A stretch of DNA of 64,000 bases from Coffea arabica (taxonomy: Eukaryota; Streptophyta; Magnoliopsida; Gentianales; Rubiaceae): NCBI RefSeq assembly GCF_036785885.1, contig NC_092323.1:11788501-11852500 (forward strand), given 5' to 3'. The translations under genes were made by a program, and so were the position numbers. Below, piece after piece: positions 2,266 to 30,011 of this stretch. Under the pieces are notes generated by a model that made no database searches, had not been told where the DNA came from, and saw only the letters and a list, made by a program, of their open reading frames with translations. How positions within the stretch are numbered: the stretch's first letter is position 1; each line of letters begins with the position of its first letter.

Positions 2266-3905
2266 AAAATTTTTTTGGTGTCCCTAAGTTCAATTTGATA
2301 GTTTATGATGTCCTATCAGCTTTCAATATATGGCTATATCCGATAAAAGGCAAAGAATAATGCCAACATTAGAAGATAGGGAAAGAGGTGAGACTCTTGC
2401 TTACCCAGAAGCCGTTCTTCTCACAAATCCAGCCAATCATTCTCTCAAAGTAGAGGTTAGTTCTATCAATTAAGCACTAGTAATGTGATTCTATTAATTA
2501 AGCCGTAGTAATATGATGTACCCTTTTTTCACTTCCCAATGTGTCAATTGTCATAATTCATGATAATTATGATACGATAATTATCATGAATTATCATTAT
2601 TCTTGATTTTTTTTTTTTAAAAAAACCATCATAACTGATGGAGTAATTTGATCCCTTAATGGGCAGGTGGATGACAAGTACCAATATTCTAGTGATGTTA
2701 AAGATACTCGGGTGCACGGGTGGATATGTACAAATCCACCCACTGGATTTTGGATGATAATCCCAAGTAATGAATTCAGAATTGGTGGTCCTATGAAACA
2801 AGAACTTACATCCCAGGCCGGCGCAACTACTATATCGGTGAGCATGGACTTCTATGAATTCCCATCTCTTGAAATATGTTTCATTGAATATAATTGTCTA
2901 GACGGTAGTAAGGGCTTAAAATCTCTAACAATCTTGGCATGTAAGATTGATATTTTACATATCATAACTTTGTTTTTTTCATTATGTCAGCTCCTCCTTT
3001 TTTAGATAAATTTTGAGATATGTAAACAAAAGCAAATTTTTAATGCTGTTTTTCACTCTTAAGTCGTTCCATACCAATCATTATGCTGGAGAAGACATGC
3101 GACAACAATTCAGAGATGGAGAGCCCTGGAAAAAGGTTTACGGCCCTGTTTTTGTCTACCTTAATTCTGTTCCAGAAAGTGGTGACCCCGACTCACTCTG
3201 GGAAGATGCCAAGCAACAGGTAATTTTAATTGGTAAAAATACAAAAAAAAAAACTCTAAATAAGATCGCACATAGGTTGAAAAATAACTGTGAGATTCTT
3301 TATCATATGGGCATTTTTCAATTATGGCAGATGTTACAAGAGACTGAGAACTGGCCATACGATTTCCCCCGTTCAGAAGACTATCTTTCTGCTGATCAAC
3401 GTGGCAGTGTTAGTGGCCGGTTACTAGTTCGAGACACGTACATAAACCTAAGCTTTTATGTCCTCGTACTTTCTTGCAAGCAATATTGCAAATATTTGAT
3501 TAGCACTAAACCTCAATAATTACCATCTTTCAGTGGCAAAAATCAGGATCTAAAGAATGGGAGCTTAGCTTATGTTGGCTTAGCTCTACCGGGTAATGCT
3601 GGATCTTGGCAAATGGAAAACAAGGTATGTACTTAAATCTAGTGGAGGTAGCCAAAATTGGATTTAGATGAAGATAATTTTTTTTAAACTTGCAATTAGT
3701 CTCCGTGATGACATGCATGATAATTGCTAGAGATAGTTGAATCTGTAAAATTACACCATTTTTGTGATGGGTTCAAGAGAAATTTAGTTTTGATAATCAT
3801 ATTATTTGTAACTTGTATAGTCTACTCACGCTTAATTTTAACAGGGCTATCAATTCTGGACACAAGCGGACAATAATGGTAACTTTTCAATTGAAAATGT
3901 CCTAC

Positions 3906-3913
3906 CAGGGAAC
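3906..3913. repeat. 8-bp target-site duplication, left copy
   Basis: CAGGGAAC here is repeated exactly at 5161-5168. The pair flanks the hAT element, and an 8-bp duplication is the hAT signature. The uninterrupted paralogue (14706 onward) has a single copy of the corresponding codons. Confidence 0.93.
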
Positions 3914-4118
3914 CAGGGGCGGAGCCAGAAAAAAATCTTAGTGGGGGCACAAATAATACTAAAATTTTTTATCTACTCTTTTTTTAATTTTTTGAGCAAA
4001 AAATAAATAAATTCACTAACAAGTATAAATGATATGTATATGCCATGAAAAACATAAAAAGACAAACTCAAAATTATTAATGTAATAATAATTTTATTTC
4101 AAAAACAAACTAAACTAT

Positions 4119-4385
4119 TTACAATTGTTCACGATGAGTTTTCATATTTTGATAACGGTTTACAACTTTCTCATTTTCAACTTCACAAAGTATATTTTTC
4201 TCAATATAAGTAACTAAACAATCATTCATCCAAGTGTCTCCCATTCTATTTCGCAACCGATTCTTCACTATATTCATAGCTGAAAAAGCTCTTTCTACTG
4301 TAGCTGTAGCAACAGGCAAAATCAAAGCCAACTTTAAGAGCATATAAACCAATGGATACACAATATCTCTCTTAGTCTCCACCAA
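4119..4385 (-). pseudogene. hAT transposase C-terminal dimerisation fragment
   Basis: An 88-residue frame includes LALILPVATATVERAFSAMN, the conserved core of the hAT C-terminal dimerisation domain. The following KNRLRNRMG and WMNDCLVTYIE match the usual order in plant hAT/TTF-type proteins. The N-terminal zinc finger and the catalytic region are absent, so this is a remnant inside the non-autonomous element. Confidence 0.88.
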
Positions 4386-4865
4386 CCTTTGAGCTAGATC
4401 AGAATATCTATTTAACTAAATTTACCCATATTTGTCCATGAATAGATGGGTATGAGTATCTTAAATTTTTGTATACGGGTATAAATGGGTTACCCAATTA
4501 ATCCATTTATAATTGTTTCCCCCTAAACCTCCTCTCTTCCTCCACCCATTTTTTTTTCCCAAAATTTTCATTTTATCATAATGTTAACTACTTTGTTTCA
4601 TTATTATTATTATGTGTTGGTTTTATCTTATCATTTTATTTTCTCTTAGTTTGTTAACTTGCTCTCCCAGCTACACATAATATACAAGTAGGTAGTAATA
4701 TTTTATTTTCTGGATAAAAATAAAAGAAAAATAAAAAAACTACTTCCTCTCTTTTTTTTTTGTTTTAATAAATAAGAAAAGTAAAACTAATTATTATTGC
4801 TCAGGTCATTCTTACATACTATAGCTAGCTAGTGTTACTTGAAGGAAAATAAATGATCCTGTAGG

Positions 4866-5060
4866 TGAAATGCACAAAGCATCCGGCATGCTCCGGCCAG
4901 CCAGTCAGAGTTGTTATAACAGATTTTTGTCCCGGATATCCATGCACTTCCGGACCTGCTCATTTCGACCTCAGCGGAACTGCTTTTGGTGCCATGGCCG
5001 TTCCCGGGAAAGAACAAAAGCTTCGCGATGCCGGAGTTTTGGAAATCAGCTATGCACGGA
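4866..5060 (+). pseudogene. Captured beta-expansin exon inside the hAT element
   Basis: After an intron-like end (CCTGTAG just before the exon), the frame reads [20 protein letters not shown]. It continues through a CPG..C segment, [16 protein letters not shown] and [12 protein letters not shown]. This is the double-psi beta-barrel domain of a beta-expansin, including the HFD motif. Only one exon with some upstream intron sequence is present, so no functional expansin can result. At the 3' edge a roughly 25-bp unit containing GTTTTGGAAATCAG is duplicated, which may be a scar of the capture. The orientation is opposite to the transposase remnant and the same as the host lyase gene. Confidence 0.87.
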
Positions 5061-5160
5061 GTTTTGGAAATCAGTTTTGGAATCCCCTATATATAGGGGG
5101 TTTTCCGGCGGCTTGGGGGGGGCTTAAGCCCCCACCAGCCCCCCCTTAAATCCGTGGCTG

Positions 5161-5168
5161 CAGGGAAC
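5161..5168. repeat. 8-bp target-site duplication, right copy
   Basis: CAGGGAAC is identical to 3906-3913. The lyase reading frame resumes directly after it with YSLYAWVPGYIGDY. Confidence 0.93.
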
Positions 5169-8067
5169 TACAGTTTGTATGCTTGGGTGCCTGGATATAT
5201 TGGTGACTACAGATATGATTCCTGCATCATCATCTCTCCAGGTAATTCGTTTTGTTTTGTTTTTTTTTTTTAAGTTTAAGAAATACCTTGCTTAGCTCAT
5301 TTAAATTTGATGACATTAGAAAAACCAAGAATGGAGGGAAAGCGGTCCAAATTGGAGCAAATTTATCATTTTATCCAACTTTAACAATTTGTGAATTGTA
5401 AGATCAGCCAAAAAATTGTTTTTTTCTTATCAAAACTAAACGGGTCTTGATGCTCAATGCCCTGATACGCAGGAACAAGGATCACACTTGATAATGTTAT
5501 ATATGAGCCTCCAAGAAATGGCCCTACATTATGGGAAATTGGGATCCCTGACCGGACTGCAATTGAGTTTTTCGTGCCTGATCCGAGTCCACGGTTCACA
5601 AATCCATTATATCTGGCTTACGAGAAGTACGTTTCAGTGGTTATACAACTATTATTACTATTGTTTTTTCAATCGATAGCCACTAAAGCCATAATATTTT
5701 TTTTTGGGGGTATAACATGGCAGGTTTAGGCAATATGGATTATGGGATCGTTACTCGGAAATATATCCTGACCATGATTTAGTTTTCACTGTTGGCGATA
5801 GCAACTACGAAACAGATTGGTTTTATGCTCAAGTAAATAGGTGATTACACTTGTCACTCTTTTCTTCATTGTAATAATTCTTTATGAGGGAAAGGGAGAG
5901 AATTGTGTGGCGCTAATGCTGAATTAGTCACATTTTTTACAGGAATATTGGAAATCATACCTATGTTCCAACAACATGGCAAATAGTGTTTGATCTCCAA
6001 AATATTGATGTATCTGCAACCTATACGCTCCAAATTGCACTGGCATCGTCAACTGGAGCTGCATTGCAAGTATGGCTTTCATGTTCATCTATTGCCAATT
6101 CTTGAAAATTTTCAATTGTACTTCCTTAGTGTTGGCAATTTATTTAACTCCTATTTAGTTATATTATGTAATACTAATATTTCTCTTTTGACTTCTTGCC
6201 AAGGTTCGAATTAACGACCCAAATGCTAGGATCCCCATTTTTAATAAGGGTTTGATTGGCAAGGACAATGCAATTGCCAGACACGGTATTCATGGGCTGT
6301 ATCGGCTATATAGCATAGAAGTTTGGGGCTCTCAACTTGTGCAGGGAAGAAATTCGATATTTCTCACGCAGTCAAGAAACTCATTCCCTTGGGAAGGGAT
6401 AATGTATGATTACATTCGTCTTGAAGGTCCGCCTCAAGATAACTGATGTCTAAGTAGCTATAGGAGCGAAAAGTGACAGATGGAAATTATAGATAGGAGA
6501 AAATAATGTGTGTTAAAATTGCATGTTATAAACTATGAAATTTATATTTCTGCATGATACGAACTATATATGGCAATGTAGGATAAATTTTGCTTAATGA
6601 TTGAAACTCGAAAAAAAAAAGACATAAGCATTCCTATCAACGACAAGGAATTGTTGACTCAGTTCCTGAAGCGTGCTTATTATGCCTTGTAGAGTCATAA
6701 TTCGTGCCATCCTCGGCAGACAATTCCCAAATGCAAGCCCTTTTCGTTTTCTGACTTTTTATTATGTATTGTTCATCTTCATTAAGACCAAAAATGTAAA
6801 GCAGGAGGATGTTCTTAGTTTCAACAGACTGAGGGCATGCATCTTAATGTATATTGAACTCATAATTTAAAATTTGCTGAGTTCTCATCATAGTTAACGA
6901 GTATTTCATCCAATATAATCACTGTGCTCTTTAGGTTGAAACAGGCATAACTAGTCATACTGGTTGCAACTTGCAAGGGAGTCAATTCTTTGTCAATCCT
7001 AGAAAATTTTCTGTAGATATAAATATTCTCTAATATTGGCAACTCATTATTGTAACTTGAAGATTTCTTCCTGTCTTAGCCAGTTTTTTCTTCACCCATC
7101 CTACTTTTTCTTTTTAGATTAATTGGTGATAAATTCATCTCACTGTATAATTCAACATTGTGGGAAAGAAGGCATTGAACCTGTGATATTGCAATCATCT
7201 GGAAATCTTGCGAAGAGGAATGTGACTACATTCATGCACAATTTGATATAATCATTGAGATTTTACAAGTGTACTTTTTAATATGAGAAAAAAAATCATT
7301 TGTTGCTTCTTTTAAAACGTTTCCTATTCCTTTTCATTCTTTACCTTTTATTCTCAACTTTTTTTTTTTTTTTATTGTTTTTGCTCTTTTATTTTCATTT
7401 CCTCTCTTGCTCTTACTTATTGATAGAATTCTTGATTTCCCCCATGTCCATGGTTCAACTGCGTGATTTTCTTGTTGTATATATAAATGCAATCTTTCCC
7501 CTAAGAACACTAAGCCCAAACTGTACTCATTCAAAATCACTTCGATTTCGTTTTCCAACTTAGATGAGTGCCTTTCTTTTTCTCTTCCTCATTTACTGTC
7601 ATTTCCTATCATTAATACTAATATTTTCGCTTGATTTTCCATAGTGATCATGGTTGTTATCCAAAAAATTTTGCATGATTTTTTTGTTCCGTAGCCCTGG
7701 AGAACTTGGAGCAAATAGAAATAGTTGGAGAGGGGCAAACTTGCGAGTTGCTGTGCATGCTTACCGGTGGGTATGTAGTGGCAGTATTGAAAGTTTAAGG
7801 CTTCATCCCGTGTTTTCCATAAACTGCTTTTTCTTTTTAGTATGACACCAGATGTTGGTGTTTGCTATTCAATTAAAATTGATTTCAGGAGAAAGAATAA
7901 ATTTCTTTTCCCTTCTTTGTAAAAAATGTACATTTTTATTTGGAAGAACAAGAATACCAATAATTTGGTATTTTTAAAAGTACTTTGAACTGCTAAACCA
8001 TTGTTTCTCCTTTCATTAATCTTCAAAAACATAACTACATAGCACTATTGAATAAAGGAACATTTTT

Positions 8068-10504: not shown

Positions 10505-10851
10505 ACACATTATATACATAAGACGTTTTCAAAGTATAAAGTGCCTTGGGAATCAATTTCTCCGTTTTACCAGTAACGCTTGGTCATACGGTCTTAGATT
10601 CACACCTGAACCACATATTCCTTTTGTTACTTGTAGTTTCTTCTCATCTCCCCATACTTCAACACTTATTACCACCCATTGAAAGCAGCCTCTGCTTCTC
10701 TACAGATTGGAGAGGTAAGTTTCATTCAACTTAATTAATGTACATTGTTTCTGTTACTTTATTTCTTCAAGAAAAAGAAAGGGTTGGCAGCCAAGTTTTT
10801 GAGAGTTTTCCTGCATGAATCCTTGTACATTGCATCTTCTTGAATTGCAGG
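10505..10851 (+). promoter_or_regulatory. Putative TATA box and leader with intron, RG lyase copy 2
   Basis: ATTATATACATAAG near 10509 is a plausible TATA box. The leader then runs to GGAGAG followed by a GTAAGT donor near 10715. A leader intron ends at TTGCAG near 10851, 26 bp before the ATG. The transcription start is inferred, not seen. Confidence 0.45.
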
Positions 10852-10876
10852 CTCATTAAGAGTGCAAGAGACAGAG

Positions 10877-13227
10877 ATGGGGAAGATGAGCCAGAGGAGA
10901 CAATGGAGCTGTGTGGTGGGGTGGTTCGGAATTTGCCTTCTTCAGTTATTGCTGCTTGCTGAATGTACAGTGAGAAGACAGTTAGGTTCTTACTCCATCA
11001 CGTTTCCTTCAGTTCCTCATCTTGTGCTTGTCTTCAACTGCCATGTTCTTGTGAACCCCAAATTTAGGATTTTGCAAATTATACTCATCTGCAGAGAAGA
11101 TGGATGAACCTAGATTTTCTTATATAAACTACTAAAAACTGTTGTAGTGTTTGAAAAAAACATTCTTCTGTTCTTTTTTTTTGTGGGCTTTAATTATTGT
11201 TATTTTCATTTTTCTTTCACATTTGTTTATCTATAACTTGTTAAGAAGGTTACCTGGGTATGGTGGGGAGAGTCTTCTTTGTCAGATGAATCCAAGACTG
11301 CTGCTTTTTGGAAACAAGGGAATGATACACAGACATAGACATATTCTCTCACTCTCGTGTGCGTTAACTGTGATGAGGCACTTTTGTGCCCTGTGTTCTG
11401 TGCCACTTTTGTCTCTTTCACCCTTCCGTGACAAAGATGTGTGGTGTACTACCAATTTTTGTTTAAGAATGGACACTTGGGACTCTTTGGACCTCAAACC
11501 ATACCTTACAATAAAAACATTAGACAATCTCGTGATCATGTCCTAGCAAAAGTGAAAAAGGCCTTCATACATTATTGTTATTCCTCCTCCTCGAGCCAAT
11601 TTCATCCATCTGTACTCAATTGTCTATGAGCTTTTTAGCCCTCATCCATCCCAACTCTAGTCCCTCCTTTTGTTTTAGGCTCTGTAATCCACAATTGAGT
11701 TGACAAAATAAGAACCCTACAATTTCCAGTCCCCTTGAGGAGGAGAATTTGGTCCACTGCTATGAGTTTTAAGTATCAGAAACCATATGAAAAAACGATG
11801 TCATTTACTATGAATGCAGAAACGTGTGGGCAAATGAATGAACTGTTACTACTATGACATTCATTGACAATTTACTAATTTGAAATTTAAATGCAGAGAA
11901 TTAATCTAATTTTTGTTTGCCCTTTTTTTCTTTTACATTTTGTATCTTATGCAGAAGAATAACAAAGAAAGGCTTCCAAGACCTGGAGTCGTATCCTCCA
12001 GTTCGGTTGCATCTGCTAGAAAATCACGTAAAAAAGCATTATCAGTAAAATACTTCGGTTCTACTTCATGAATGATTTTCGAATTCTTCAGACAAATAAT
12101 TTCTAATATCTTTGGTTAGGTTGTGATGGATAATGGCCTGGTGAATGTTACACTGTCTGTTCCTGAGGGTATGGTGACAGGGATAGAGTACAATGGCATT
12201 GCAAATTTATTGGAAGAAAGAAATAAAGAAAATGACAGAGGGTATGTGCTCTGCCAATATTTCATTTTATCAAAATGTAAGTAAAACCTTCCGTCTCTTT
12301 TGCTCATTTTGGCTTAAATTAACTGCATGCAGGTATTGGGATATTGTTTGGAATTTACCAGAAGCTCATGGGAATATCTTTGACAAGTAAGCCTTAATTA
12401 ATACACTTCTGAAGGTATAACTGATGTTTAAAGGGCAAATCAACAATCCAAAATCATATAGTAGTAACTGAAAAAATGTTTCGAGGTATATTGGGTTCTT
12501 GAAGATTAATTCTTTGGATCTTGAATACAATTATGCAGGTTGGCAGCTACTAGCTTGAATGTGGTTTTGGAAGATGAGAATGGAATAGAGCTTTCTTTCA
12601 CCAGAACGTATGATGATTCCATTAATGAGGCACAACTTTCGCTGAATATTGACAAAAGGTGCAGTGTAAGTCGTGAAAATGAACCATTACCAATTTACCA
12701 TACCATACCTAGGGCAGCAAGAATGCATGATACTTAAATTCAATAGCCCCTAGAAATTAAATTCATTTTTGCTCCTTACAACTAACTAAAAATGTCAAAA
12801 CTGAAACTCTTGGTGCAGGTTCATTTTGTTGCGTGGCTATCCTGGATTTTACACATATGGGATTTTTGAGCGTTTGGAAGGATGGCCTGATATCAATGTC
12901 TATCAGGGCCGTACAGTATTCAAACTTCAGGAGAAGTTGTAAGAATCAATCAGCTCTAAATTTTCTTTATTAAAAACAGATTTTTTTTGGCTTAACAAAA
13001 AAAAAAAAAAGAAGGTAATTTGGATATTTATGTACAATAATCAGGTTTGAATACATGGCTGTATCTGATGAAAGGCAAAGAATAATGCCAACAGCAGATG
13101 ATAGGGCAAGAGGTCAGATTCTTGACTACCCTGAAGCTGTTCTTCTCACAAATCCAGCCAATACATTTCTCAGAGGAGAGGTTGGTTCCATCAATTAGCA
13201 GTTCTTGATTAGTTTTTTTTTTTTTTG

Positions 13228-13263
<36 letters not shown>

Positions 13264-15920
13264 TGGGGAAATCAGAAATGTAAATGACTTGGGTTGATGC
13301 CTTAAATGGGCAGGTGGACGACAAGTATCAATATTCCAGTGATAACAAAGACAATCGGATCCACGGGTGGATTTGTCCAGACTCACCCACTGGATTTTGG
13401 ATGATTACGCCCAGTAACGAATTCAAAACGGGTGGGCCTGTCAAACAAGACCTGACCTCCCATGTTGGCCCAACAACTTTATCCGTGAGTATATCCACAC
13501 TAGATATTTTTAACTTATGAAGCCCAAATCTAATTACATGGCATACCAGATCATTGGTTATCAATTACTAATTTAATTCTAAACTCCATTTCCTATTCTA
13601 AGTGTATTTGTGATTTTTATGGATCCGAGGTCTCACAAGTTGTGTCTTGCATAATTTTGAACAAGTTTTTCCCTCTGATGTGATGTAAATAAGTAGGATT
13701 TCGGCCGAAGTCATTTTAGGTATCCAAAAAATGGAGTTTTGAGTAAATAAATTGAATTTAGGTGTAAACAAGTTAGATTCGGGTGCAAATCAGCTAGAAT
13801 TGGTTTGTTATTGTAAATCGGGTACAATTTGGTGTAATTCGAGAATGAATTACTACTCATTTATCCACAAATTGCACGAAATAGAACTTGTGAGGCCCTA
13901 TTCCCGATTTTTGTGTTGGCTTTTGCTGGTCAGATGTACTTCAGCACCCACTACGCTGGAGAGCCCTTGGCGATGACATTTCGTGATGGAGAGCCCTGGA
14001 GAAAGGTTTTTGGTCCTGTTTTTGTTTACCTAAATACTCTTCAAGAAAATGATACTGAGCCTCTTTCCCTCTGGGCCGATGCCAAGGAACACGTATTCCA
14101 TTCATCTGCTAATTTTCTTCTACACAATAAAATCAACTTTTTTTAATATATATATATAAAAGATTATCATGCAATGACTTGAAAAGTTGTCACATTGGTA
14201 CTAATTAGTGAGTATTTTGGCAGATGTTAATAGAAACTGAAAGCTGGCCATACAGTTTCCCACTCTCGGAAGACTACTCTTTTGATTATCAACGTGGTAG
14301 TGCTAGTGGTCGATTACTAATCCAGGACAGGTAAATGTTTTTGGCTCCGTTTTACTACAATTTGTTGCCAACAACGTTGTAAACATTGGAACTGATTCTT
14401 GACCAGAATGAATTTTCTTAATTAGTTACATAAGTGAAAGGCTAATCACTGGGAACTCTGCATTTGTGGGATTGGCTGCACCTGGAGATGCTGGATCTTG
14501 GCAAACAGAAAACAAGGTTTCCACTACCTTGCTTATGAATGAATTAGACATAATTCAGTTTCTAATGATTACCTTATTTATGATAAAAGTACGAGATTTT
14601 TCATGTACACATAATTTTCTAACTTTGTACTATATTTTTTGAAGGCCTACCAATTTTGGGCGGTAGCGGATTCGGAGGGTTACTTTCTGATTAAAAATGT
14701 CCGACCGGGGAACTATAGTTTATATGCTTGGGTACCTGGATACATTGGTGATTACAAATATGATTTCTATGTCAATATCCGTCCAGGTAAGTAATTCCTA
14801 TTTGCTCTGTTTTAATCTCCTTTGCCTCATAAATTTCCTTCTTAAGAATGGCCTTAATTATACTACTGAATTTTCGTTTATTAATGCATGGTAATAATCA
14901 GGAAGCAGAATCACACTCGGGGCTTTGACATATAATCCCCCAAGAAATGGTCCAACATTGTGGGAAATCGGCATTCCTGATCGGACTGCTATTGAGTTCT
15001 TCATACCTGAACCAAGTCCAAGGCTGATGAATCAACTATATTCAGTTAACCAGGCAGAAAAGTGTGTTATATATCTAATCAACTGTCTCTAATTTGCTCT
15101 ATTATTTTTTATTAATAGGCAATAAGCATTTTCCATTTTTTTTTTGGGAATTACAGGTTTAGGCAGTATGGATTGTGGGATCGGTATTCAGAATTATATC
15201 CTTCCGAGGATTTGGTTTTCACAGTTGGTGTTAATAACTATCAAACAGATTGGTTCTTTGCTCATGTAAATAGGTACTTGTCACTTTGGGGCTCTTTTTT
15301 TCTTTTTGGTGGGGGTTTTTTTTAATTTTTGTTTGCTTGATACTGATACTGTCACCTCATTACAGGAATGTTGGAAATAAGACTTATGTTCCAACAACTT
15401 GGCAAATAGCTTTTGATTTGGATAATATTGATTTCTTTGGCACCTATATGCTTCAAATAGCTCTGGCATCAGCAAATGAGGCTGAATTACAGGTACGAAC
15501 TTCATATTTATCTATTGCCACCGCATTTCTTAATTTCTTTCTATTCCAACTACTTTTTCCTATTTTAGCTTGGAAATTCTTTTCAAGGGACCAAAATATT
15601 TCGATTGGTCTTTAATTAATGTACTCCAAAATAGCTTTTTGTAAATTTTGACAATGTATTTTATCTTCATGTCTAAGGTTCGAATCAACAATCCAGATGA
15701 AGAGACTCCATATTTTACAACGGGCACGATTGGCAAGGACAACGCAATTGCTAGACATGGTATTCATGGATTATATATGCTGTATAGCTTAGAAATCCCG
15801 GGCTCTCAGCTACTGTTTGGTAGAAATATAATATATCTCACACAGTCAAGAGGCTCAAGTCCTTGGAGAGGGATCATGTATGATTACCTTCGTCTTGAAG
15901 GTCCACCTGAATATACATGA
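10877..15920 (+). CDS. Rhamnogalacturonate lyase copy 2 (PL4), intact
   Basis: This is a secreted family 4 rhamnogalacturonan lyase acting on pectin RG-I in the cell wall. The 16 coding exons are: 10877-10980, 11955-12027, 12120-12241, 12333-12386, 12539-12658, 12819-12938, 13045-13180, 13314-13484, 13934-14092, 14224-14330, 14426-14516, 14645-14786, 14902-15061, 15157-15273, 15366-15492 and 15678-15920. Their lengths sum to 2046 bases, or 681 residues plus stop, and every junction keeps frame. The N terminus has a hydrophobic segment (GWFGICLLQLLLLAEC) that fits a signal peptide. The catalytic domain includes VVMDNGLVNVTLSVPEG and DDKYQYSSDNKDNRIHGWIC. The fibronectin-like middle domain includes YSLYAWVPGYIGDYKYD. 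The C-terminal carbohydrate-binding-like domain includes WEIGIPDRTAIEFF and IARHGIHGLYMLYS. An ATG 12 bp downstream (MSQRR) corresponds to the start of copy 1 and is an alternative. Confidence 0.93.
13235..13268 (+). repeat. Long poly-G tract in intron 7 of RG lyase copy 2
   Basis: About 29 consecutive G residues are followed by T and four more G, and preceded by a T tract at 13213-13226. It lies in the intron before the exon at 13314. Such a run can form a G-quadruplex and is prone to sequencing or length error. Confidence 0.9.
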
Positions 15921-16350
15921 TGTACGAGTAGCAGGAGAAAGGGAAATTGGTCATCGTACTTGTTCATTTTTTTTCTTTAAATAGAAAGGCATAAAGCATA
16001 ATTGGATATTCTAGTTCTCAGGAGCTTTAGATTATTCCTAGAAGATGATGAGAGAAGCTTACAGCCATTGAGACTGGCTGTTGATTTTGTAAGAGCTCTG
16101 TTCTTATCTCTAGTTAGCATCTCCTGGCCTTGTATCTTTTTTCTTTTCACGTTATTCTCGAAACTGAAACAAATGTCAAGTCAATACTAAAGAACAGTGG
16201 AAGAGAGGTCGGAATTCATACTTAAGCTAATAAATCCAATTGCATTTTGTGTTACCTCTCAATTTTGAAAAATTGAACATCTGCTCCTGCAAAAATATGT
16301 GGTTTTTTTTTTTGGCTTAAAAAAATGTGATTCTCTGTAAAGAGAAGTTA
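15921..16350. other. 3' flank of RG lyase copy 2
   Basis: The 3'-UTR and intergenic DNA end at the copia insertion. No gene or RNA is recognised. Confidence 0.5.
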
Positions 16351-16355: not shown

Positions 16356-16907
16356 TGTTAAAGTCAAGCCACAGCAGCAACTCTTGACTTCTTGCTGCAG
16401 CCGCAATTCTTGATTCTTGACTGTGGCAGAATTTTGTAATCCCACATCGCCAGAAGCTGAGGGAATAGCCTCCATTGTTTCCTATAAATAGAGAAGGCCT
16501 TTGAGAAGTTTAAGTGCACCACTTAAGAGAGTTATATGGGCTATTAGCTTCTTAAGTCATTTAGCCCATTCAGTCAAATATTTTAGGCTCTCTTATTTTG
16601 AGTTTAGGAATATTTTCTAAACTCTTTTGTAAGTGCCTATTGGCCTAGGAACCACTTTCCTACGGCTTTTGTATTTCTTCTTCATAGTAGAAATATTGCT
16701 CCTCCCTCGCCCGTGGACGTAGGTCAATTTACCGAACCACGTAAATCTTCTGTGTCTTTTATTTGCTTTGCTATCTGTCTTTATATGGTCGGTTTTACCG
16801 CCTAATTATTATATGGCTGGTATCTACCGCCTATCTATTATATGGTCGGTCATACCGCCTACTTTGTGCTAACTTGAGTTTGTCTATTTTCTGGCCCGGT
16901 CCTAACA
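16356..16907 (+). repeat. 5' LTR of copia 1
   Basis: The 552-bp LTR begins TGTTAAAGTC and ends CCTAACA. It differs from the 3' LTR by five substitutions, all C/T differences on this strand, and a 1-bp indel. A CCTATAAATAG promoter-like motif lies near 16481. Toward its 3' end it holds three diverged copies of a unit containing TATATGG.CGGT and ACCGCCTA (about 16783-16862). Confidence 0.95.
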
Positions 16908-16910
16908 AAC

Positions 16911-16922
16911 TGGTATCAGAGC
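16911..16922 (+). other. Primer-binding site of copia 1
   Basis: TGGTATCAGAGC lies 3 bp after the 5' LTR. It is complementary to the 3' end of plant initiator methionine tRNA, the usual primer of plant copia elements. Confidence 0.92.
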
Positions 16923-16945
16923 TGGTTGTTATATTTTGCAAGACA

Positions 16946-17112
16946 GGTTCATCTGGTGGGGCCCGTTCATCTGGTGGGGTCCGTCCATCCTGTGGGGCCC
17001 ACTCATCCTGTGGGGTCCGTTCATCCGTGGGGTCCGCTCACCTTGTGGGGTCCGTTCATCCCGTGGGGCCCGCTTATCTCGTGGGGTCCGCTCACCCTGT
17101 GGGGGCCGCTCA
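16946..17112 (+). repeat. GC-rich minisatellite of about 18-bp units in the copia 1 leader
   Basis: About nine diverged copies of an 18-bp unit of the type TTCATCTGGTGGGGCCCG lie between the primer site and the gag start. Unit length is a multiple of three and the tract is open in three forward frames, but no start context ties it to gag. It is most simply a leader minisatellite. Confidence 0.85.
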
Positions 17113-17179
17113 CGAGACTTGCATATTTGTTTGGCCAGTTTTTTGAGACAAATTTCACGTTACAGATTTTGTGGCAACA

Positions 17180-20100
17180 ATGACGATAACAAAGACGGTT
17201 GTCGAGAAATTCGACAGGAATGTCAACTTCGGAATGTGGCAGCTCAAGATGGAGGCCATTCTTGTTCAAGACGGAGTTGATCTAGCGATTCACGGAATCG
17301 AGAACAAACCAGAAGATGTAAAGGATGCGGATTTCGCCGATATGGATAAGAAGGCCAGATCCAGCATAATCTTAAATCTCTCCGATGAGGTATTGCGTGA
17401 GGTAGCAACGGAGACTTCGGCCAAGGCTATGTGGGATAAATTGAAAGCCTTGTATATGAAGAAGACAGTCGAGAATCGGCTATATTTGAAGCAGAGTTTG
17501 TACATGCTTCGGATGTCTGAAGGTACATCTATACTCTCCCATCTTGATAAATTTGATTCCATTATTATGGATTTGGGGAATATAGATTCGAAAATTGATG
17601 ATGAAGATCAAGCCCTATTACTTTTGTGTTCCCTTCCCCAGTCTTTTAAGCATTTCTGCGATACTATGATTTATGGAAAGGAAACAATTTTGTATCGGGA
17701 AATTAAATCTGTATTAAAATCTAAAGAGCAGATAGATAGGGACATTACTGGGGAAACTAGTGGGAGTCAAGCCGATGGCTTGTTTGTTCGGGGTAGATCT
17801 GAAAAGAGAAACACAGAAAATAGAAGTAGATCCAAGTCCAGACATAAAAATGTGGTGTGCAATTATTGTAAAAAGAAGGGCCATGTTATTTCTGATTGCT
17901 TTAAATTGAAAAATAAAGAAAAGCAAAAAGGGAAATTTGTTGAGAAAAATACTGAATCCGCTGAAGCTAGTATAGCAGCTGATGAGAATGATGGAACTAT
18001 TTTCTGTGCAACGGAAAATAATTTTAGGTCTAACAATGAGTGGATTTTAGATTCGGGTTGTTCGTATCATATGTGTCCCAACAGGGACTGGTTTTCAACA
18101 TATGAATCAACTGAAGGTGGAGTTGTCTTAATGGGCAACAACGCTGTTTGTAAAGTTGTTGGCAAAGGCACAATCCGGATTAAAATGTACGATGGTATTG
18201 TGAGGACGCTCACAGATGTTAGACATGTTCCAGATTTGAAGAAAAATCTCATCTCTTTGGGCACTCTTGAGTCTATAGGGTGCAGGTATTCAGGTGGAGA
18301 CGGAGTTCTCAAAATCACTCGAGGTGCTCTTGTTGTTATGAAGGCATACAGATCTGGTACTTTATATATTTTGCAGGGATCTACTGTTACAGGTGCTGCT
18401 GCTGTTTCTACATCAACTTTGTCTGATTCTGATTTTACCAAATTATGGCACATGAGATTGGGGCACATGAGCGAGAAGGGCTTATCTATCTTATGCAAAC
18501 GAGGTCTTCTTGGTAGTCAAAGTATTGGAAAGATGGGACTCTGTGAACATTGCATTTTTGGAAAGCAGAAGAGAGTTAGCTTCCAGTTGCCGGCAGTTCA
18601 CAGGACCAAAGGAACTTTAGACTACATTCATTCAGACCTCTGGGGGCCTTCTCGTGCTCCTTCTAAAGGTGGTGCCAGGTACATGTTGACTTTCATTGAT
18701 GATTATTCAAGGAAAGTTTGGGTATATTTTCTTAAGCATAAAAATGATGTTTTCCTAACTTTCAAGCAATGGAAAGTTTTGATTGAGAAGCAAACAGGAA
18801 AACACATTAAGCGGTTGAGAACAGATAATGGCATGGAATTTTGTGGAGGTGAATTTAATGAATTCTGCAAGAATGAAGGAATTGTTCGGCATCACACCGT
18901 CAGGATGACGCCTCAACAAAATGGTGTGGCTGAACGTATGAACAGAACGCTTTTGGAGAGAGCAAGATGTATGATCTCCAATGCAGGGTTGACAAACGAC
19001 TTTTGGGCAGAGGCGATCAATATGGCCTGTTATATTGTCAACCGTTCTCCTTCTGCATCTCTTGATTTCAAAACTCCTGAGGAAGTTTGGTCAGGTACTC
19101 CTGCTGATTACTCCAATTTAAAAGTTTTTGGTTGTCCAGCATACATGCACGTGAATGATGGAAAATTGGAGCCTAGGGCTAAAAAGTGCATTTTTCTTGG
19201 GTATGCTTCTGGGGTGAAAGGATACAGATTATGGTGTCCTGATCCCAAATCTCCAAAATTTGTGATCAGTAGAGATGTTACTTTTGATGAATTGTCTATG
19301 TTATCTTCCAAGAAAGAGTCTTCTAGTCTTTGTACTACTGATAGTACACAGAAGCAGGTGGAGCTTGATATTGGCAGTTCTGGTCCTTCTCAGACCAAAT
19401 CTTCTATTCAACAAATGCCAGTAGATGCACCTGAGTCTACTGTGGAAGATAGTTCAGAAGAAGAGGAATATTCCATAGCCAGAGATAGACAAAGGAGAGA
19501 CATTCGACCACCACAAAGATATGCAAATTTAGTTGCATATGCTTTGTCTATTGCAGAAGAAACTGATGCAGTTGGTGAGCCTTCCACCTATTCAGAAGCA
19601 GTTTCTTGTGATGATTCTGCAAAGTGGTTGATTGCGATGAATGAAGAAATTGAATCTCTTCATCGTAATGAAACTTGGGTTCTTATAAAGCCGCCGTCAG
19701 CTAAGAAAATTGTTGGATGCAAATGGGTCTTCAAGAAGAAGGAAGGTATTCCAGGGGTTGAAGATGCAAGATATAAAGCACGATTGGTTGCAAAGGGCTA
19801 TAGTCAGGTACAAGGTGTTGATTTTAATGATATATTCTCACCTGTTGTTAAACATAGCTCTATTCGTGTTTTGCTTGCTTTAGTAGCCATGTATAATTTG
19901 GAGTTAGAACAGCTCGACGTTAAGACAGCTTTCTTACATGGCGAACTTGAAGAACAAATTTATATGAGACAACCCCAGGATTTTGAAATTGAAGGTAAGG
20001 AAGACCATGTTTGCTTATTGAAGAAATCCTTATATGGATTGAAGCAGTCTCCAAGACAATGGTATAAAAGGTTTGATTCCTTTATGTTGGGTCATGGTTA

Positions 20101-21139
20101 TTTGAGGAGCATGTATGATAGTTGTGTTTACTTCCGGAAGTTAAATGATGGTTCTTTCATTTATTTGCTGCTTTATGTTGATGACATGCTCATTGCTGCC
20201 AAGAATTTGTCAGAAATTCACACTTTGAAACTGCAGTTAAATAGTGAATTTGAAATGAAAGATTTGGGAGCAGCTAAGAAAATTCTTGGCATGGATATCA
20301 AAAGAGATCGAGGAGTAGGGAAGTTGTTCTTGACCCAGAAAAATTATCTTGAGAAAGTTTTGGAGCGTTTTGGCATGAAAGGTGCTAAACCAGTATCTAC
20401 TCCTCTTGCTAGCCATTTTCGGCTATCTGCTGCTCAATCACCAAAATCAGATGAAGAGGAAGATTATATGGCACGGGTTCCTTATTCCAGTGCAGTCGGC
20501 AGTATTATGTATGCAATGGTTTGTACTCGTCCAGATATTGCACAAGCAGTCAGTGTTGTTAGCAGATATATGTCTTGCCCTGGTAAAACACATTGGCAGG
20601 CTGTGAAGTGGATTCTCAGATACTTGCGAGGTACTTCAAATGCATGTTTGGAGTTTGGAAGAAATAATAACACTTTGGTTGGTTTTGTAGACTCAGACTA
20701 CGCTGGAGATCTTGACAGGAGAAGATCACTTTCAGGCTATGTATTTTGCATTGGCGGTTGTGCTGTTAGTTGGAAAGCTACTCTACAACCTGTCGTAGCT
20801 TTGTCTACTACAGAAGCATAATATATGGCTGTGACCGAGGCAATCAAAGAAGCCTTGTGGTTGAAGAGTTTATTTAGCGAGCTAAGTCTATATCAAGGTG
20901 TTACTGATATTCACTGTGATAGTCAAAGTGCCATACACTTGACTAAAGATCAGATGTATCATGAGAGGACGAAACACATTGATGTGAAGTATCACTTCAT
21001 TCGGGATATCATTGTTGAGGGAAAAGTCCTTATTCAGAAAATCAATACTAAGGACAATCCAGCCGATATGTTTACGAAACCTCTTCCAATTTACAAGTTC
21101 AAACAGTGCTTGAACTTGATTGGTATTCATTGTTGGTGA
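17180..21139 (+). pseudogene. Copia 1 gag-pol polyprotein with one in-frame stop
   Basis: A single frame of 1319 codons is interrupted only by TAA at 20819-20821. The domains in order are Gag (UBN2/DUF4219 type), a CCHC zinc knuckle ([14 protein letters not shown]), aspartic protease ([12 protein letters not shown]), the GAG-pre-integrase HHCC region ([13 protein letters not shown]), an integrase core with D-D-E landmarks ([30 protein letters not shown]), RT with LYVDDML near 20170-20190, and RNase H with [17 protein letters not shown]. The stop falls in RNase H, where the family usually has an acidic residue (STTEA.Y), so it looks like a single point mutation. The annotated start is the ATG at 17180 ([11 protein letters not shown]). 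Confidence 0.93.
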
Positions 21140-21213
21140 TTTATGCCCATTGGGGCTTATGTGGAGAAGGTGGAGCAATTTTACTATTGTCGATAGTGGT
21201 ACTCAAAATTATG

Positions 21214-21227
21214 CCAAGGTGGAGATT
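21214..21227 (+). other. Polypurine tract of copia 1
   Basis: CCAAGGTGGAGATT lies directly before the 3' LTR. It is a typical plus-strand primer region for this copia group. Confidence 0.75.
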
Positions 21228-21780
21228 TGTTAAAGTCAAGCCACAGCAGCAACTCTTGACTTCTTGCTGCAGCCGCAATTCTTGATTCTTGACTGTGGCA
21301 GAATTTTGTAATCCCACATCGCCAGAAGCTGAGGGAATAGCCTTCATTGTTTCCTATAAATAGAGAAGGCCTTTGAGAAGTTTAAGTGCACCACTTAAGA
21401 GAGTTATATGGGCTATTAGCTTCTTAAGTCATTTAGCCCATTCAGTCAAATATTTTAGGCTCTCTTATTTTGAGTTTAGGAATATTTTCTAAACTCTTTT
21501 GTAAGTGTCTATTGGCCTAGGAACCACTTTCCTACGGCTTTTGTATTTCTTCTTCATAGTAGAAATATTGCTCCTCCCTCGCCCGTGGATGTAGGTCAAT
21601 TTGACCGAACCACGTAAATCTTCTGTGTCTTTTATTTGCTTTGCTATCTGTCTTTATATGGTCGGTTTTATCGCCTAATTATTATATGGCTGGTATCTAC
21701 CGCCTATCTATTATATGGTCGGTCATACCGCCTACTTTGTGCTAACTTGAGTTTGTCTATTTCCTGGCCCGGTCCTAACA
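21228..21780 (+). repeat. 3' LTR of copia 1
   Basis: The 553-bp partner of 16356-16907 has the same TG...CA ends and is followed by the GATGC duplication at 21781-21785. Confidence 0.95.
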
Positions 21781-24597: not shown

Positions 24598-27500
24598 ATG
24601 GAGAAGGCAAACTGGAAGAGACACTCCCATTTAGCGTTATTCTTGTGGTTTTTAGTTAGTTCGCGGTCCGTCTATGCTAGGTATATTTACCAAAGAAAAT
24701 ACAGAAATTAAACAACAAAAAGCACACATGCCTATAATACTATGGCCTAGATCAACATTTTGAGTTCTTCTTGATGATCAGTTCATCATACAAAATAAAT
24801 ACTCCGAATATACTTTGTCATCATTGACAAGCGAATTTAAGTTTTGCCCACTTTGTTTTTTTCAACATGGCGTGCATGGACTTTTATCAACCTATTCTTT
24901 TCTCTTCTTTCTATCTTTTTTGACTTCGTCTATATGTCTGTCCAATTTCAAAAATCTGACTGAAAATGTCTCTTTCATTACCTTGTTCAAATTGCAGAGC
25001 GAGTCGATTGAGAAATGTTAAAGAGCTGAAATCCTCTCCTCCACTCAACCTGGATGTACAGCAGGGCTATGTGAGTCTGGCTAATTCATTACTATTATTT
25101 AGTTAATTCAATTAATTTACTTCTGCAAATAAAGAAATATGTTGGGCTCTTTTTATTTAAAGAAATAAGTATACGTGTTTGTTTCTTTATAATAATCCTA
25201 TACATACTTCTTTTCCAGGTGGTGATGGACAATGGCCTCGTTAGAGTCACTTTATCCAATCCTGCTGGTATTGTCACAGAAATAAAATATGAAGGAGTCG
25301 ATAATGCTCTGGACTATAGTCAACGAGAGTCACGAAGAGGGTATATATTCACTTTTATTCCACTTTTTTTCTTGGTGTAGAAGGGCATTTGCATTGAGCA
25401 ATTATGCAAAAAGAATATCTTTTTCTTTGTGTCTATATTGTTATTGAACTTATCCTTTGAAATTCATACTGCATTGTTGTTTACACAGATTGATTTTTTT
25501 TTTCAAAAATTTACTGAATTTAAGCATAGTTTCTTTCCCATCTTGATGATTAATCGATAGTTAAATATGGGGGTGCCGAAATTTAAAAATGTAATTCACT
25601 AACCAAAACAAGGGTGCTTAGTTAAATATTCACATTAATTACTTAGCCACCTAAGAAATGGCACATCAGTTTTATGATATTGAAGGTAATTTTCCTTCAA
25701 AAAAAAAACAAAATATTTGATAAAATCATTCACTCCTTTAAACACTGTCACGGTGTTATTGCTGGCATTTTATTGTTGTTTAAGAAAACTATTACCAGAG
25801 GTCGTATTAACTCATCATTACAATACCTAAACATGACTCCTTTATATTTCATGCATATTTTTAGAAACTCGGAATTTATATCTCGTCTTGACTTGAATGG
25901 AACAACTATGATAGGTACTGGGATATCGTGTGGCAAAGGCCAGGCCAAGCTGATATTTTCACTATGTAAGTTCTTTGTTAGTTTTAAGATTTGTAATCCA
26001 TGAATAGACAGCAAAGGCAAACGTACATATAATGCCCACATCTCCTCCATGATCAAAATGAACTAATAAATAACTAAATTATTGATCATAGCAAAAAAAT
26101 GAGAAATGAAATGTAGAATTTTTTTGCAGTATCGAAGGAACAAGCTTCAAAGTTATGGCCCAAAATGAGAATCAAATTGAGGTTTCCTTCAAGATGATTT
26201 ATGATGCTGCCCATGATCAAAGTGGTTCAGCTCTACCCCTAAACATTGACAAAAGGTACTCTATCCATTGAAAACATTATGTATAGAGTTCCTAGTTGTA
26301 CCATTTGTTAATGTTTCTACACGTAAATTCTTGTTTTCATTTTAAACACTATATTTAGGTTTGTAATGCTGCGTGGCCAACCTGGATTCTACTCTTATGC
26401 CATATTTGAACGCTCGAATGGATGGCCGGGAGTTGATATCAGTGAATTAAGGATTGCACTCAAGCTTGACCACAGACGGTAAAAACCACAATCCACATAC
26501 ATCTTAGAAGTTCTGATTTGTAAAACGATGTTAAACACATCAAAAAAGAATTATTCAAGTTCTTTGTCGAATGAATATGTTTACCTTTTAGAAATTTAAA
26601 CTAAAAGGAGACAAGGGTTAGTGCAACTAGTAAAGAGTCAGTTGATCTCATGATTGTGCGTGGTAATAATTAGTTTAATAAGTTTGTATGATGAATTAGG
26701 TTCAACTACATGGCCGTAGCGGACAATATACAAAGGGTCATGCCAACGGCCAGTGATAGAACAAATGGTCAACCTCTTGCCTATCCTGAAGCTGTTTTTT
26801 TGACAAATCCGACCAATTTAACTTTCAAGGGACAGGTAGGTGTTCACACAATATTTCTCCAGTATGGCACGAAAATTACCTAATTAAGTTTAGCATCAAT
26901 TTTGTAATTTTTTTATATGGTAAAGAGTTAGTAAAATTCTGATTAATTACTAATGCAGGTAGATGATAAGTATGAATACTCAAAAGACAACAAGGACAAT
27001 CATGTACATGGCTGGATAACCTCTGATTCCCAAGTGGGATTTTGGATGATAATCCCCAGTTATGAGTTCAAAACTGGTGGCCCTATAAAACGAGAACTAA
27101 CATCCCATGTTGGACCGACCACCTTAGCGGTACAAATAATTTTCTTCTATATTTTTGTTGGTGCCAAACCCAAAACAAAAAAAAAAATCGTGAGGGCAAT
27201 ATATATAAATTCCAATTAATCTTTGCTTGATTTATGGTGTAGGCATTTCACTCCCGGCATTATGCTGGTGCCACCTTGAAAGGACTAAAGTTTGTCGATG
27301 GAGAGCCGTGGAAAAAGGTTTTTGGACCTGTTTTTGTATATCTGAATTCCAATTCAGACAGCCCTACATCATTCTCTCTTTGGGAAGACGCAAAACATCA
27401 GGTTAATTTATATTTTTGGCAAATCAGGTTTTTGGAAAAAAAGAAAAAGAAAAAGAAAAGAAAAAAATTGACAAATCATTCGCATATGACTTTTTTTTTA

Positions 27501-29577
27501 TTTTCTACTATAAGGATAACATATAACTCTCATTTGACTTGACCTGTTTATTATATGATTTTAGTCAGTAAAAGAAGCACGGAAATGGCCATACGATTTC
27601 CCAGCATCAGACGATTATCCTCATGCCACTCAAAGGGCCACGGTTAGGGGTCATCTAAAGGTCCACGATAGGTACCTTTGATGCTCTTTTTTTTTTTTTT
27701 TCCCCAAGTGAAAGAGTTTGATATTATATTTATCATTTTTCAGTTGCTTTCTAGAAATGGAACAAGTTTTTTTTTTTTTTCTCGCAAACATGTGTGAGTA
27801 AGAAACTTAGGACAAATTTTGTATATTGATTAGATACTTGGAACGATCGCCTTTTCCTGCCAAATCTGCATATGTGGGATTAGCTCCGCCAGGAGCTCCG
27901 GGGTCATGGCAACTAAATGCCAAGGTACATTTTGATATGTAGTACTTTTTTCCGGTTTCATAGTCTTTTTTAAAGAAACTCCTATAATGTTTTTTTTCTT
28001 TGGGTATTTAGCAGTACCAAGTATTTTTTAAATAAACTCATATTTGTCTTAACCTTTATGTTCCTCATCTTAGGGTTATCAATTTTGGACTCAAACTGAT
28101 GATTGTGGTCATTTCACCATAAGAGGCATTCGGCCGGGCAAATACAACTTGTATGCTTGGGTACCCGGAATTATGGGCGATTATAAGTCTGATTTAGATA
28201 TTAACCTCAGGCCAGGTAAATAAACTAATTAACTTCCATTGTTTTCTTTTCTTCTTTTTGTAACTTTTTTCCTTCTTTCTTGTATTTTTCGTTTTAAACT
28301 GACATTTTAGGCCGAAAAACTAGATTTAATTTTCTCAGGAATACAAAATTGAACAAACAAATCAACACTAACCAAATCTCAAGAATTTAATTACCAAATT
28401 GCCTAGTATATAGTATCCTAATTCCATTTTAAGTGTACATGAACTTCCACAATATTTATGATTTAAGTATACAAAGAAATGGTTTTTGTAAATAGTAAAA
28501 TTGTTGAAAATTGAATAATTTGCTTTGCAGGAGAGTACAAACTAGGAGAATTCGTGTTTACGCCTCCTAGAAATGATCCAACAATTTGGGAAATTGGCAT
28601 TCCTGACCGTACAGCTGCTGAGTTCTATGTGCCTGATGGAAATCCACAACTCGAAAATCCTTTATTCATCAACCATCCTGAAAAGTCAGCTCTCACCCCA
28701 AAACTATATCTTTTCCTGTTTCTTTTTTTTTTTCTTTCCTTTATTCATGCTGTTTTTTTTATATATATAAAAAATTCAGGTATCGGCAATATGGTTTGTG
28801 GGAACGTTATACAGACTTATACCCTGATCATGACCTAGTTTTCAGAGTTGGAGTTAGCGATTATCGAAAGGACTGGTTCTTTGCTCATGTAACAAGGTGC
28901 TTATAGTCTTTCTTCTACTTAATCCCATGACATTTTCATGTTTTTTTGGGGCTTCAAATCACTTTTGGGAGTCCTGAGGTGTAATTTTTGCTTTATGTTG
29001 CAGGAGAAGCGAAGATAATTCACGTCTACCTACAACTTGGCAAATTTCATTCGACCTCAGACAGGTCCTTCCAAAGGCAATCTACACCCTCCAATTGGCT
29101 CTGGCATCTTCCGCGGGTGCTGAAGTGCAGGTAACAATTGAAATTCTATATGTAGTGAACATACTTCCAAACAATGGATAAAAATTTATGAACCCCACTA
29201 TTTTATATTTTCTGAACTTTATAAGGTAAAATGCCAAAAAAAAGAAGAAAGCCACCCTTTATATTTTTTTGTGCTATTAAGAACATTTTTTACGATTCAT
29301 TTGAAGAGATTTGTATATCTAATCGACATTAATCTGATAGGTTAGGGTCAACGATCCAAATGCAAGTTCTCCTCAATTTTCTACAGGGCTAATTGGGAAG
29401 GATAATGCAATTGCAAGACATGGAATTCATGGGTTGTATCAGCTCTTTAGTGTTAATATACCAGGCAACAGGCTTGTATCAGGAACGAACACAATCTTCC
29501 TGAGGCAGTCAAGGGGTGGATATATATTCAGCGGGGTCATGTATGATTACCTTCGTCTGGAAGGACCAGCAGTGTAA
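24598..29577 (+). CDS. Rhamnogalacturonate lyase copy 3 (PL4), intact
   Basis: This family 4 rhamnogalacturonan lyase has about 671 residues in 16 coding exons, with the same intron positions as copy 2. It starts MEKANWKRHSHLALFLWFLV, followed by SSRSVYA, a convincing signal peptide. The catalytic domain has VVMDNGLVRVTLSNPAGI and DDKYEYSKDNKDNHVHGWI. The middle domain has YNLYAWVPGIMGDYKSD. The C-terminal domain has WEIGIPDRTAAEFYVPDG, IARHGIHGLYQLFSV and MYDYLRLEGPAV before TAA at 29575. All splice junctions I followed keep frame. It is more diverged from copies 1 and 2 than they are from each other, and its first two exons differ most. Its 3' end was partly duplicated just downstream. Confidence 0.92.
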
Positions 29578-30011
29578 ACAATTATGGGTTGAAGTCCTTA
29601 AGTTACTTTAGTAGGAAATCAGGATTCATTAGTTTGATAGTTTAGGATTCTTTTATTTCTTGGTTTTTGAGTATAGCTATTTAGGAAATTGTAGCTCAAA
29701 ATCTCAAGGCTCCCAAAGAGGGAAGGTATGACGCATTCATTTATTTCTTGGCACGACAACAATTCGTGCACTTATACACACAGTGATCAGCAATGTAGTG
29801 TGCTCTGCAATCTCAATTGTACGATAGATATTTAGCAATAAAAATTTCGAGCGGATGCATTTTCATCGTGTTCTGGGTTTTACCCAAGAATTTGTCCTTG
29901 ATGTCGGTTGATTTTCAGATCTATATATCTGTATTATGTTTTAATATACTTGCTGCCATTGGTGCAGATATTGGAATGAAATTATCATTTTTATGTACAT
30001 TAAAAAAAATT

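Follow-up and report, generated by a model that had tools for sequence, protein, structure and literature searches.

A hAT transposon with ends from two subfamilies carries a beta-expansin exon within a rhamnogalacturonan-lyase gene of Coffea arabica

A coding exon of a polysaccharide lyase family 4 (PL4) rhamnogalacturonan-lyase gene of Coffea arabica is interrupted by a complete, non-autonomous hAT element of the Pack-hAT kind, which is 1,247 bp long and occupies positions 3914–5160 of the window, i.e., the whole stretch of 64,000 nucleotides analyzed here (C14:11788501-11852500); genome searches covered 131 contigs with 1,197,963,845 bases, on which apparent homoeologs pair up between contigs (C3/C4, C13/C14, C19/C20, C21/C22). 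The element is a three-part chimera: its left end derives from one hAT subfamily (A), its middle from a beta-expansin gene and its right 82–85 bp from another subfamily (B). We consider it highly probable that the A-type 3′ end, the copied expansin piece and the B-type right end were combined by template-switch capture and that the product was then mobilised to seven sites. How cut-and-paste transposons acquire pieces of host genes is still debated. Here, donors, junctions and several cargos are available in one genome, together with an empty site and a relative in which the transposase frame is open, and thus gap-filling, fork-stalling and composite-excision models become testable on the same ends. 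The nearly constant right breakpoint was the feature least expected.

The insertion is flanked by an exact 8-bp duplication, CAGGGAAC, with its left copy at 3906–3913 and its right copy, an exact match, at 5161–5168. The homoeologous lyase gene on contig C13 (L082) represents the empty site and contains a single, uninterrupted CAGGGAAC; the joined window flanks aligned to it with 96.8% identity over 3,052 columns, through the insertion site. The interrupted exon extends on the plus strand from 3845 to 5241, with exon parts at 3845–3913 and 5169–5241 and splice limits set by eye. Pfam matches to fn3_3 (PL4 domain II) were found on either side of the element (E values of 6.9e-8 and 4.2e-7), together with a CBM-like domain (domain III) downstream of the insertion (E = 7.8e-18) and a weak match to RhgB_N upstream of it (E = 0.011). 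The target is accordingly classified as a PL4 rhamnogalacturonan lyase with its domain II split and its domain III downstream. An earlier note on this DNA, written from the letters alone, had placed the transposon in a lyase coding exon, and the fn3_3 matches on both sides as well as the uninterrupted homoeolog bear this out.

Upon entering the element, the lyase frame continues for 30 codons and meets an in-frame stop at 4004–4006; therefore, unless splicing removes the element, the product ends within domain II and lacks domain III. Judged from this stop in the sequence, the insertion would have knocked out or truncated the lyase in the window. The frame of the expansin exon runs to a stop at 5147–5149 and does not join the lyase frame. 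As one of a set of young exon-carrying hAT copies, the element broke a pectin lyase gene on one subgenome, and the site in the homoeolog is uninterrupted. More copies of the interrupted lyase gene are present in the window at 10774–15932 and 26357–30820, most pieces with 66–86% DNA identity; hence, the insertion sits within a tandem PL4 lyase cluster.

The element begins and ends with CAGGGGCGGAGCC...CCGTGGCTG. Its left 490 bp (3914–4403, minus strand) correspond to the 3′ end of a subfamily A hAT (end CAGGGGCGGAGCCAG), including the C-terminal end of the transposase gene, and are 98% identical to positions 1–490 of the related element L020. A 98-codon open stretch on the minus strand (4119–4415), the first codons of which read into the cargo, encodes the hAT C-terminal dimerisation region (PF05699, Dimer_Tnp_hAT, E = 9.8e-9), as the earlier note had recognized. 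The right 82 bp (5079–5160) constitute the terminal module of subfamily B, which ends with CCGTGGCTG, contains an inverted repeat around CCCCTATATATAGGGG and is 98–100% identical to 33 other listed places.

Several observations assign the element to the hAT superfamily: 8-bp duplications that are exact in 7/7 copies and single at the empty site, the transposase dimerisation fragment in the element and the full frame in L020, and CAG-type short terminal inverted repeats, with CAGGGGCGGA at both ends of L020. The element's own terminal repeats, CAGGGGCGGA and CAGCCACGGA, match at 7 of 10 positions. The exact duplications from which, together with CAG-type ends, a hAT transposon had initially been proposed were recovered in all copies and agree with the homoeologous empty site. 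Pack-MULEs are characterized by duplications of 9–11 bp and by MULE ends or transposase; we rejected this class on account of the 8-bp duplications in all seven copies and the hAT nature of the transposase remnant. A chance origin of the terminal and duplication matches was rejected as well, given seven copies with their own exact duplications and the single CAGGGAAC at the homoeolog. The designation as a Pack-hAT is based on the non-autonomous structure, on host gene sequence copied from identifiable donors (beta-expansin genes on C4 and C3) and on post-capture transposition, as the same cargo occurs at seven loci with different duplications.

The cargo covers window positions 4406–5059 (element positions 493–1146) and consists of two blocks of one beta-expansin gene, both on the plus strand. 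Block 1 (4406–4666) is a part of intron 2, with 93% identity over 264 columns to the donors (L018, positions 5621–5358; L019, positions 5622–5361). Block 2, which is 98–99% identical to the donors, comprises the 3′ end of intron 2 up to the acceptor TAG (4667–4864, placed by alignment to the donors) and the entire exon 3 (4865–5059), encoding part of the double-psi beta-barrel; the exon was delimited by eye, with 194 nt up to the donor splice site and 1 further nt, i.e., the exon side of the cargo ends 1 nt beyond the exon 3 boundary (GCACG|GTCAG). Between the blocks, 502 bp (C4) or 506 bp (C3) of the donor intron are missing from the element, with an overlap of ~1 bp, and this gap could be a later deletion. 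The frame at 4865–5149 matches DPBB_1 (Pfam, E = 2.1e-10), and among PDB entries the exon is most closely related to Phl p 1 (E = 4e-15) and to beta-expansin 1a, entry 2hcz (E = 1.3e-12).

The donor loci, C4:3676961 and C3:3670655, matched the exon over 195 bp with 99% identity, and across these 195 bp a single synonymous difference, AAA to AAG, separates exon 3 from the donors and its frame is still open. Both loci contain a four-exon beta-expansin gene as read from open frames, with splice limits set by eye. The donor profile scan covered the C4 copy, in which Expansin_C was found (E = 1.1e-24), along with a weak match of exon 2 to EXPB1_D1 (E = 0.014). DPBB_1 in the exon, its relative Phl p 1 and Expansin_C in the C4 donor identify the cargo as beta-expansin. 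The plus-strand double-psi-barrel exon with part of the preceding intron, noted earlier, is confirmed by the domain match, the PDB relatives and the donor alignment, and so is the transport of a cell-wall gene fragment by a DNA transposon into a second cell-wall gene, from beta-expansin donors to a PL4 lyase target. The extent first given for the cargo, 4800–5070, had to be revised to the larger region described above, with two intron 2 blocks and the full exon 3. The search for the donor expansin that had been advised led to the two homoeologous genes on C4 and C3, in which the exon/intron boundary was located by eye. The cargo differs from the donors at 20/655 and 17/653 positions and the donors differ from each other at 18/656; eight sites are common to the element and C4 only, nine to the element and C3 only, and nine are private to the element. 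Because these differences are star-like, capture and subgenome split appear to be of similar age.

Using the element as query, the whole-genome search identified seven full-length copies among at least 41 matches. As 40 of 2,417 first-look candidates were scored, relatives of the element are undercounted; the 34 other listed matches all stop at or before element position 502. An exon query of 204 bp yielded nine candidate places, all scored, which are the seven elements and the two genes. Further copies with the same ends and cargo, for which the earlier note had proposed to look, therefore exist. Their 8-bp duplications are exact in 7/7 copies and differ between all sites, and the flanks are unrelated; tandem or segmental duplication was rejected as the source of the seven copies on these grounds. 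Four copies (L001–L004) are identical across 1,247 bp, L005 has one change and L006 three, and L007 has four changes plus a 5-bp insertion located in the exon. The identity of the first four would be at most an indirect sign of current transposon activity. If between 5e-9 and 1e-8 substitutions per site and year are assumed, the mean of 1.14 changes per copy corresponds by rough dating to ~0.09–0.18 million years, and the most changed copy, L007, taken alone, to 0.32–0.64 million years. The available text of PMC11018527 dates the polyploidy event of C. arabica to 350–610 thousand years ago and the divergence of the two coffee subgenomes to 4–6 million years. Most copies probably moved after the polyploidy event, which is not certain for L007. 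The spread is far younger than the capture, because most copies are identical or nearly so.

Six of the seven copies lie on even-numbered contigs, which is suggestive of a subgenome bias at most. Two of them (L002 and L003) are on C14, 127 kb apart. The region C14:44907860-45035931 holds two expansin elements, and an element carrying polygalacturonase sequence (C14:45028723) lies ~5 kb from one of them; this suggests that related insertions are clustered locally on C14. L005 (C20:15654707) lies in a 499-codon frame, two codons short of its end, and by eye this frame resembles an NLR protein; L006 sits among short repeats.

The left and right ends trace to different parents. The subfamily A element L020 is 3,622 bp long, has exact duplications and contains an uninterrupted 812-aa frame that matches DUF4371 (E = 1.2e-85) and Dimer_Tnp_hAT (PF05699, E = 5.9e-8). 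L084 and L085 are complete A relatives with duplications and longest frames of 437 and 686 aa (3.9-kb pieces); in L086 the longest frame has 335 aa and the right end was not recognized in the 3.9-kb piece. Element positions 1–490 are common to all four A relatives read. The right ends of L020, L084 and L085 are CCGCCCCTG or CCGCCCTG with other subterminal sequence, and the element's right 82-bp module is absent from all three of these subfamily A right ends. Among the 40 candidates scored out of 229, no fewer than 33 non-expansin places have this module with 98–100% identity. A 36-base part of it occurs at 125 places genome-wide (62 + 63, with at most two mismatches, expansin copies included); the reversed control of this pattern gave 0 matches. 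A Ds2-type element would derive both subterminal regions from one autonomous parent; here, the left one is from A and the right one from B. The hAT identity given in the earlier note holds; the different parentage of the two ends, the presence of seven copies and the existence of sister elements that carry other cargos go beyond it. A second mixed-end case is L060, which combines the B right end with a third kind of left end (CAGTGACGGAGCCAGG).

Subfamily B joins this one right end to many cargos. Besides the expansin copies, we read 53 locus entries with a B right end, 45 of them distinct by flank (the merged pair L038/L039 occupies two contig positions); these 45 out of 125 places are a non-random set of best matches and low contig numbers. 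Both ends and a duplication were found in 33/45 (32 exact, one mismatched), and for the other 12 the left end was not found within the 1.5 kb examined. According to the 150 bases adjoining the right module, the 45 copies fall into 12 types, among which L060 and L067 have common adjacent bases; a nine-member type, to which L034 belongs, may represent the sequence of the parent itself. One type carries a polygalacturonase (GH28) cargo with an intron (PF00295, E values of 2.8e-8 and 2.1e-7; ADPG2 in PDB, E = 2e-7). This cargo had 15 full matches, 14 of which adjoin a listed right-end module, and a pair on C21 and C22 (C21:43791441 and C22:60655028) that matches the first 607 of 626 bases only and likely represents the donors. 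The polygalacturonase-carrying sister elements L033, L028, L046, L061, L062 and L065 are 852–860 bp long. Another cargo type has eight copies, 8/8 of which adjoin a listed module; a pair on C19 and C20 lacks its first 6–7 bases. A further type occurs at five places with 99–100% identity, four of them beside a listed module; its C11/C12 pair matches the whole query with 83% and 94%, so donor status is based on the lower identity only. The cargos of L029, L037, L050 and L055, with one or two open stretches each, gave no Pfam family above the cut-off. The only two cargos nameable by gene, expansin and polygalacturonase, are both from cell-wall genes.

When seven B types were compared pairwise, the shared left end varied from 133 to 444 bp (490 bp in the expansin element, there from A), and the shared right end measured 81–100 bp among the same seven types, or up to 110 bp in one type if the L042 sequence is taken as the assumed parent. 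The right breakpoints cluster along the outer margin of a stretch of the B end that forms a hairpin, with a folding z of -4.0 in L033 and of only -1.2 in the expansin copy, which has lost the outer stem. At the right junction of the cargo, positions 5060–5078 (plus strand) repeat exon sequence after a jump back of 25 bp with the microhomology CGG. What follows can be read in two ways, either as a second jump-back of 17 bp over AG with a switch at GGAA into the B end, or as an 85-bp B end with three extra bases common to L029-type elements; the second jump-back is therefore not certain. Under both readings, the jump-back repeat and the microhomologies suggest template switching during synthesis, in line with the gap-filling and FoSTeST models (PMC8277862). 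The left junction with the cargo has an overlap of 0–1 bp or a 2-bp filler, which does not suffice to prove template switching there.

According to the capture model that we favor, the cargo would have been copied, not cut, from a donor expansin gene by DNA synthesis that exchanged an A element for the expansin gene as its template, jumped back one or more times and finally passed via a short microhomology to a B-type end; the most likely setting is gap or stalled-fork repair near the B-end hairpin. The transposase of related elements, e.g., L020-like ones, may move the element in trans; a single enzyme would need to accept the ends of two subfamilies. More tentatively, and with clear doubt on our part, the right terminus of subfamily B (~82–110 bp) might serve as a capture port, with the hairpin (GGCCGCCGGAATCCCCTATATATAGGGGGTTTTCCGGCGGC) stalling or breaking synthesis and repair jumping at the hairpin edge into unrelated sequence, so that one near-fixed end would have gained about a dozen passenger types, several of them amplified.

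Two other routes to such a structure have to be weighed. The first is the classical route known from maize Ds2: a single element is excised, repair of the gap is aborted, and filler DNA takes the place of the middle between two ends of common parentage. For Ds2, the available text of PMC3260210 describes filler with exons and introns. This route fits most B elements, which have left ends of one type, but the right end of the expansin element differs from those of its A relatives L020, L084 and L085, and we rate the route as possible rather than likely. Somewhat less credit is due to composite excision, in which an A and a B element on either side of exon 3 were moved together by their outer ends and later trimmed by deletions. 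Such a tandem-insertion model was put forward for Pack-CACTA elements and extended to other Pack-TYPE elements including hAT (PMC8903248, available text), and the two ends do derive from two subfamilies, with a similar end mixture in L060. However, neither type of end was detected by BLAST within the 9.5 kb surrounding either donor exon (more diverged ends could escape such a search), the cut should have removed exon 3 or scarred the donor, yet both donors retain the exon, and the jump-back repeat at 5060–5078 resembles copying, not deletion. We regard composite excision as unlikely.

Another reading, in which the expansin segment is an old part of the hAT family, found no support. Presence of the segment in all autonomous relatives, which the earlier note had named as an argument against capture, was not observed: the cargo is absent from 4/4 A relatives with transposase sequence that were read and was found in 0/40 B-end entries (33 distinct loci), and the genome search with the exon returned the seven element copies and the two genes only. 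An old hAT component without any capture was consequently rejected, its probability being close to nil. The other argument considered there, an exon unrelated to expansins, is contradicted by the Pfam and PDB searches, both of which give expansin. A different question is whether the cargo is under selection, with the element either encoding a functional chimeric protein or regulating expansins. Exon 3 is open with one synonymous difference from the donors in 195 bp, and its orientation antisense to the transposase makes an antisense RNA conceivable; but an open frame is expected in young copies even without selection, the exon of L007 has the 5-bp insertion, and the exon frame stops at 5147–5149 with no link to the lyase frame. 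Selection on the cargo is hence very improbable. The exon alone probably makes no useful expansin, and any effect on the donor would go via antisense or small RNA, because exon and transposase gene are oriented in opposite directions; judging from this orientation, such an effect on expansins is possible.

The capture of gene pieces by hAT elements is already in print (available text of PMC2528002, PMC3260210, PMC8903248 and PMC8277862). As far as the available text goes, Pack-hAT and other Pack-TYPE elements of maize and rice (PMC8903248) resemble the coffee element as non-autonomous hAT elements with 8-bp duplications, a captured host gene and insertion into genes; unlike them, the coffee element has ends from two subfamilies and breaks a coding exon instead of adding one. 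Ds2 and Ds-l4 of maize (two and nine cases of gene-fragment filler, respectively) likewise have hAT ends around filler with exonic and intronic sequence from a gene at another locus, but Ds2 keeps about 200 bp of Ac per end, in contrast to the two-subfamily ends and the several multicopy cargos in coffee (PMC3260210, available portion). Hatvine-6 of grapevine is a hAT family with common ends and variable, often genic middles, and the available description (PMC2528002) is in terms of these variable middles, without a shared right breakpoint, a hairpin or chimeric ends. The FoSTeST model for animal Pack-TIRs, as presented in the accessible part of PMC8277862, has in common with our interpretation the multicopy capture by fork stalling and template switching, later transposition and short microhomologies; its hAT example occupies three chromosomes with three different duplications, and the coffee element differs as a plant element with more copies than this three-copy example and with one-sided breakpoints beside a hairpin. 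Neither a near-fixed right breakpoint serving many cargos nor two-subfamily ends around one hAT cargo was found stated in the available portions of PMC2528002, PMC3260210, PMC8903248 and PMC8277862, and the word hAT has 0 occurrences in a 2026 review (PMC13317346). We found no literature on a hAT transposon with a captured expansin and, in titles and the beginnings of abstracts, nothing on such an element for hAT gene capture in Coffea.

Additionally, other features were observed in the window. Two direct repeats of 553 bp at 16356–16907 and 21228–21780 are 98.9% identical and resemble the LTRs of a young retrotransposon (16356–21780). The segment 35888–40675 contains 225-bp direct repeats with 96% identity, 4.3 kb apart, and is perhaps a second LTR-type element. 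Finally, the region 61001–62000 exhibits a strong purine bias over 1 kb (AT skew 0.58, GC skew 0.32), with no listed tandem repeats.
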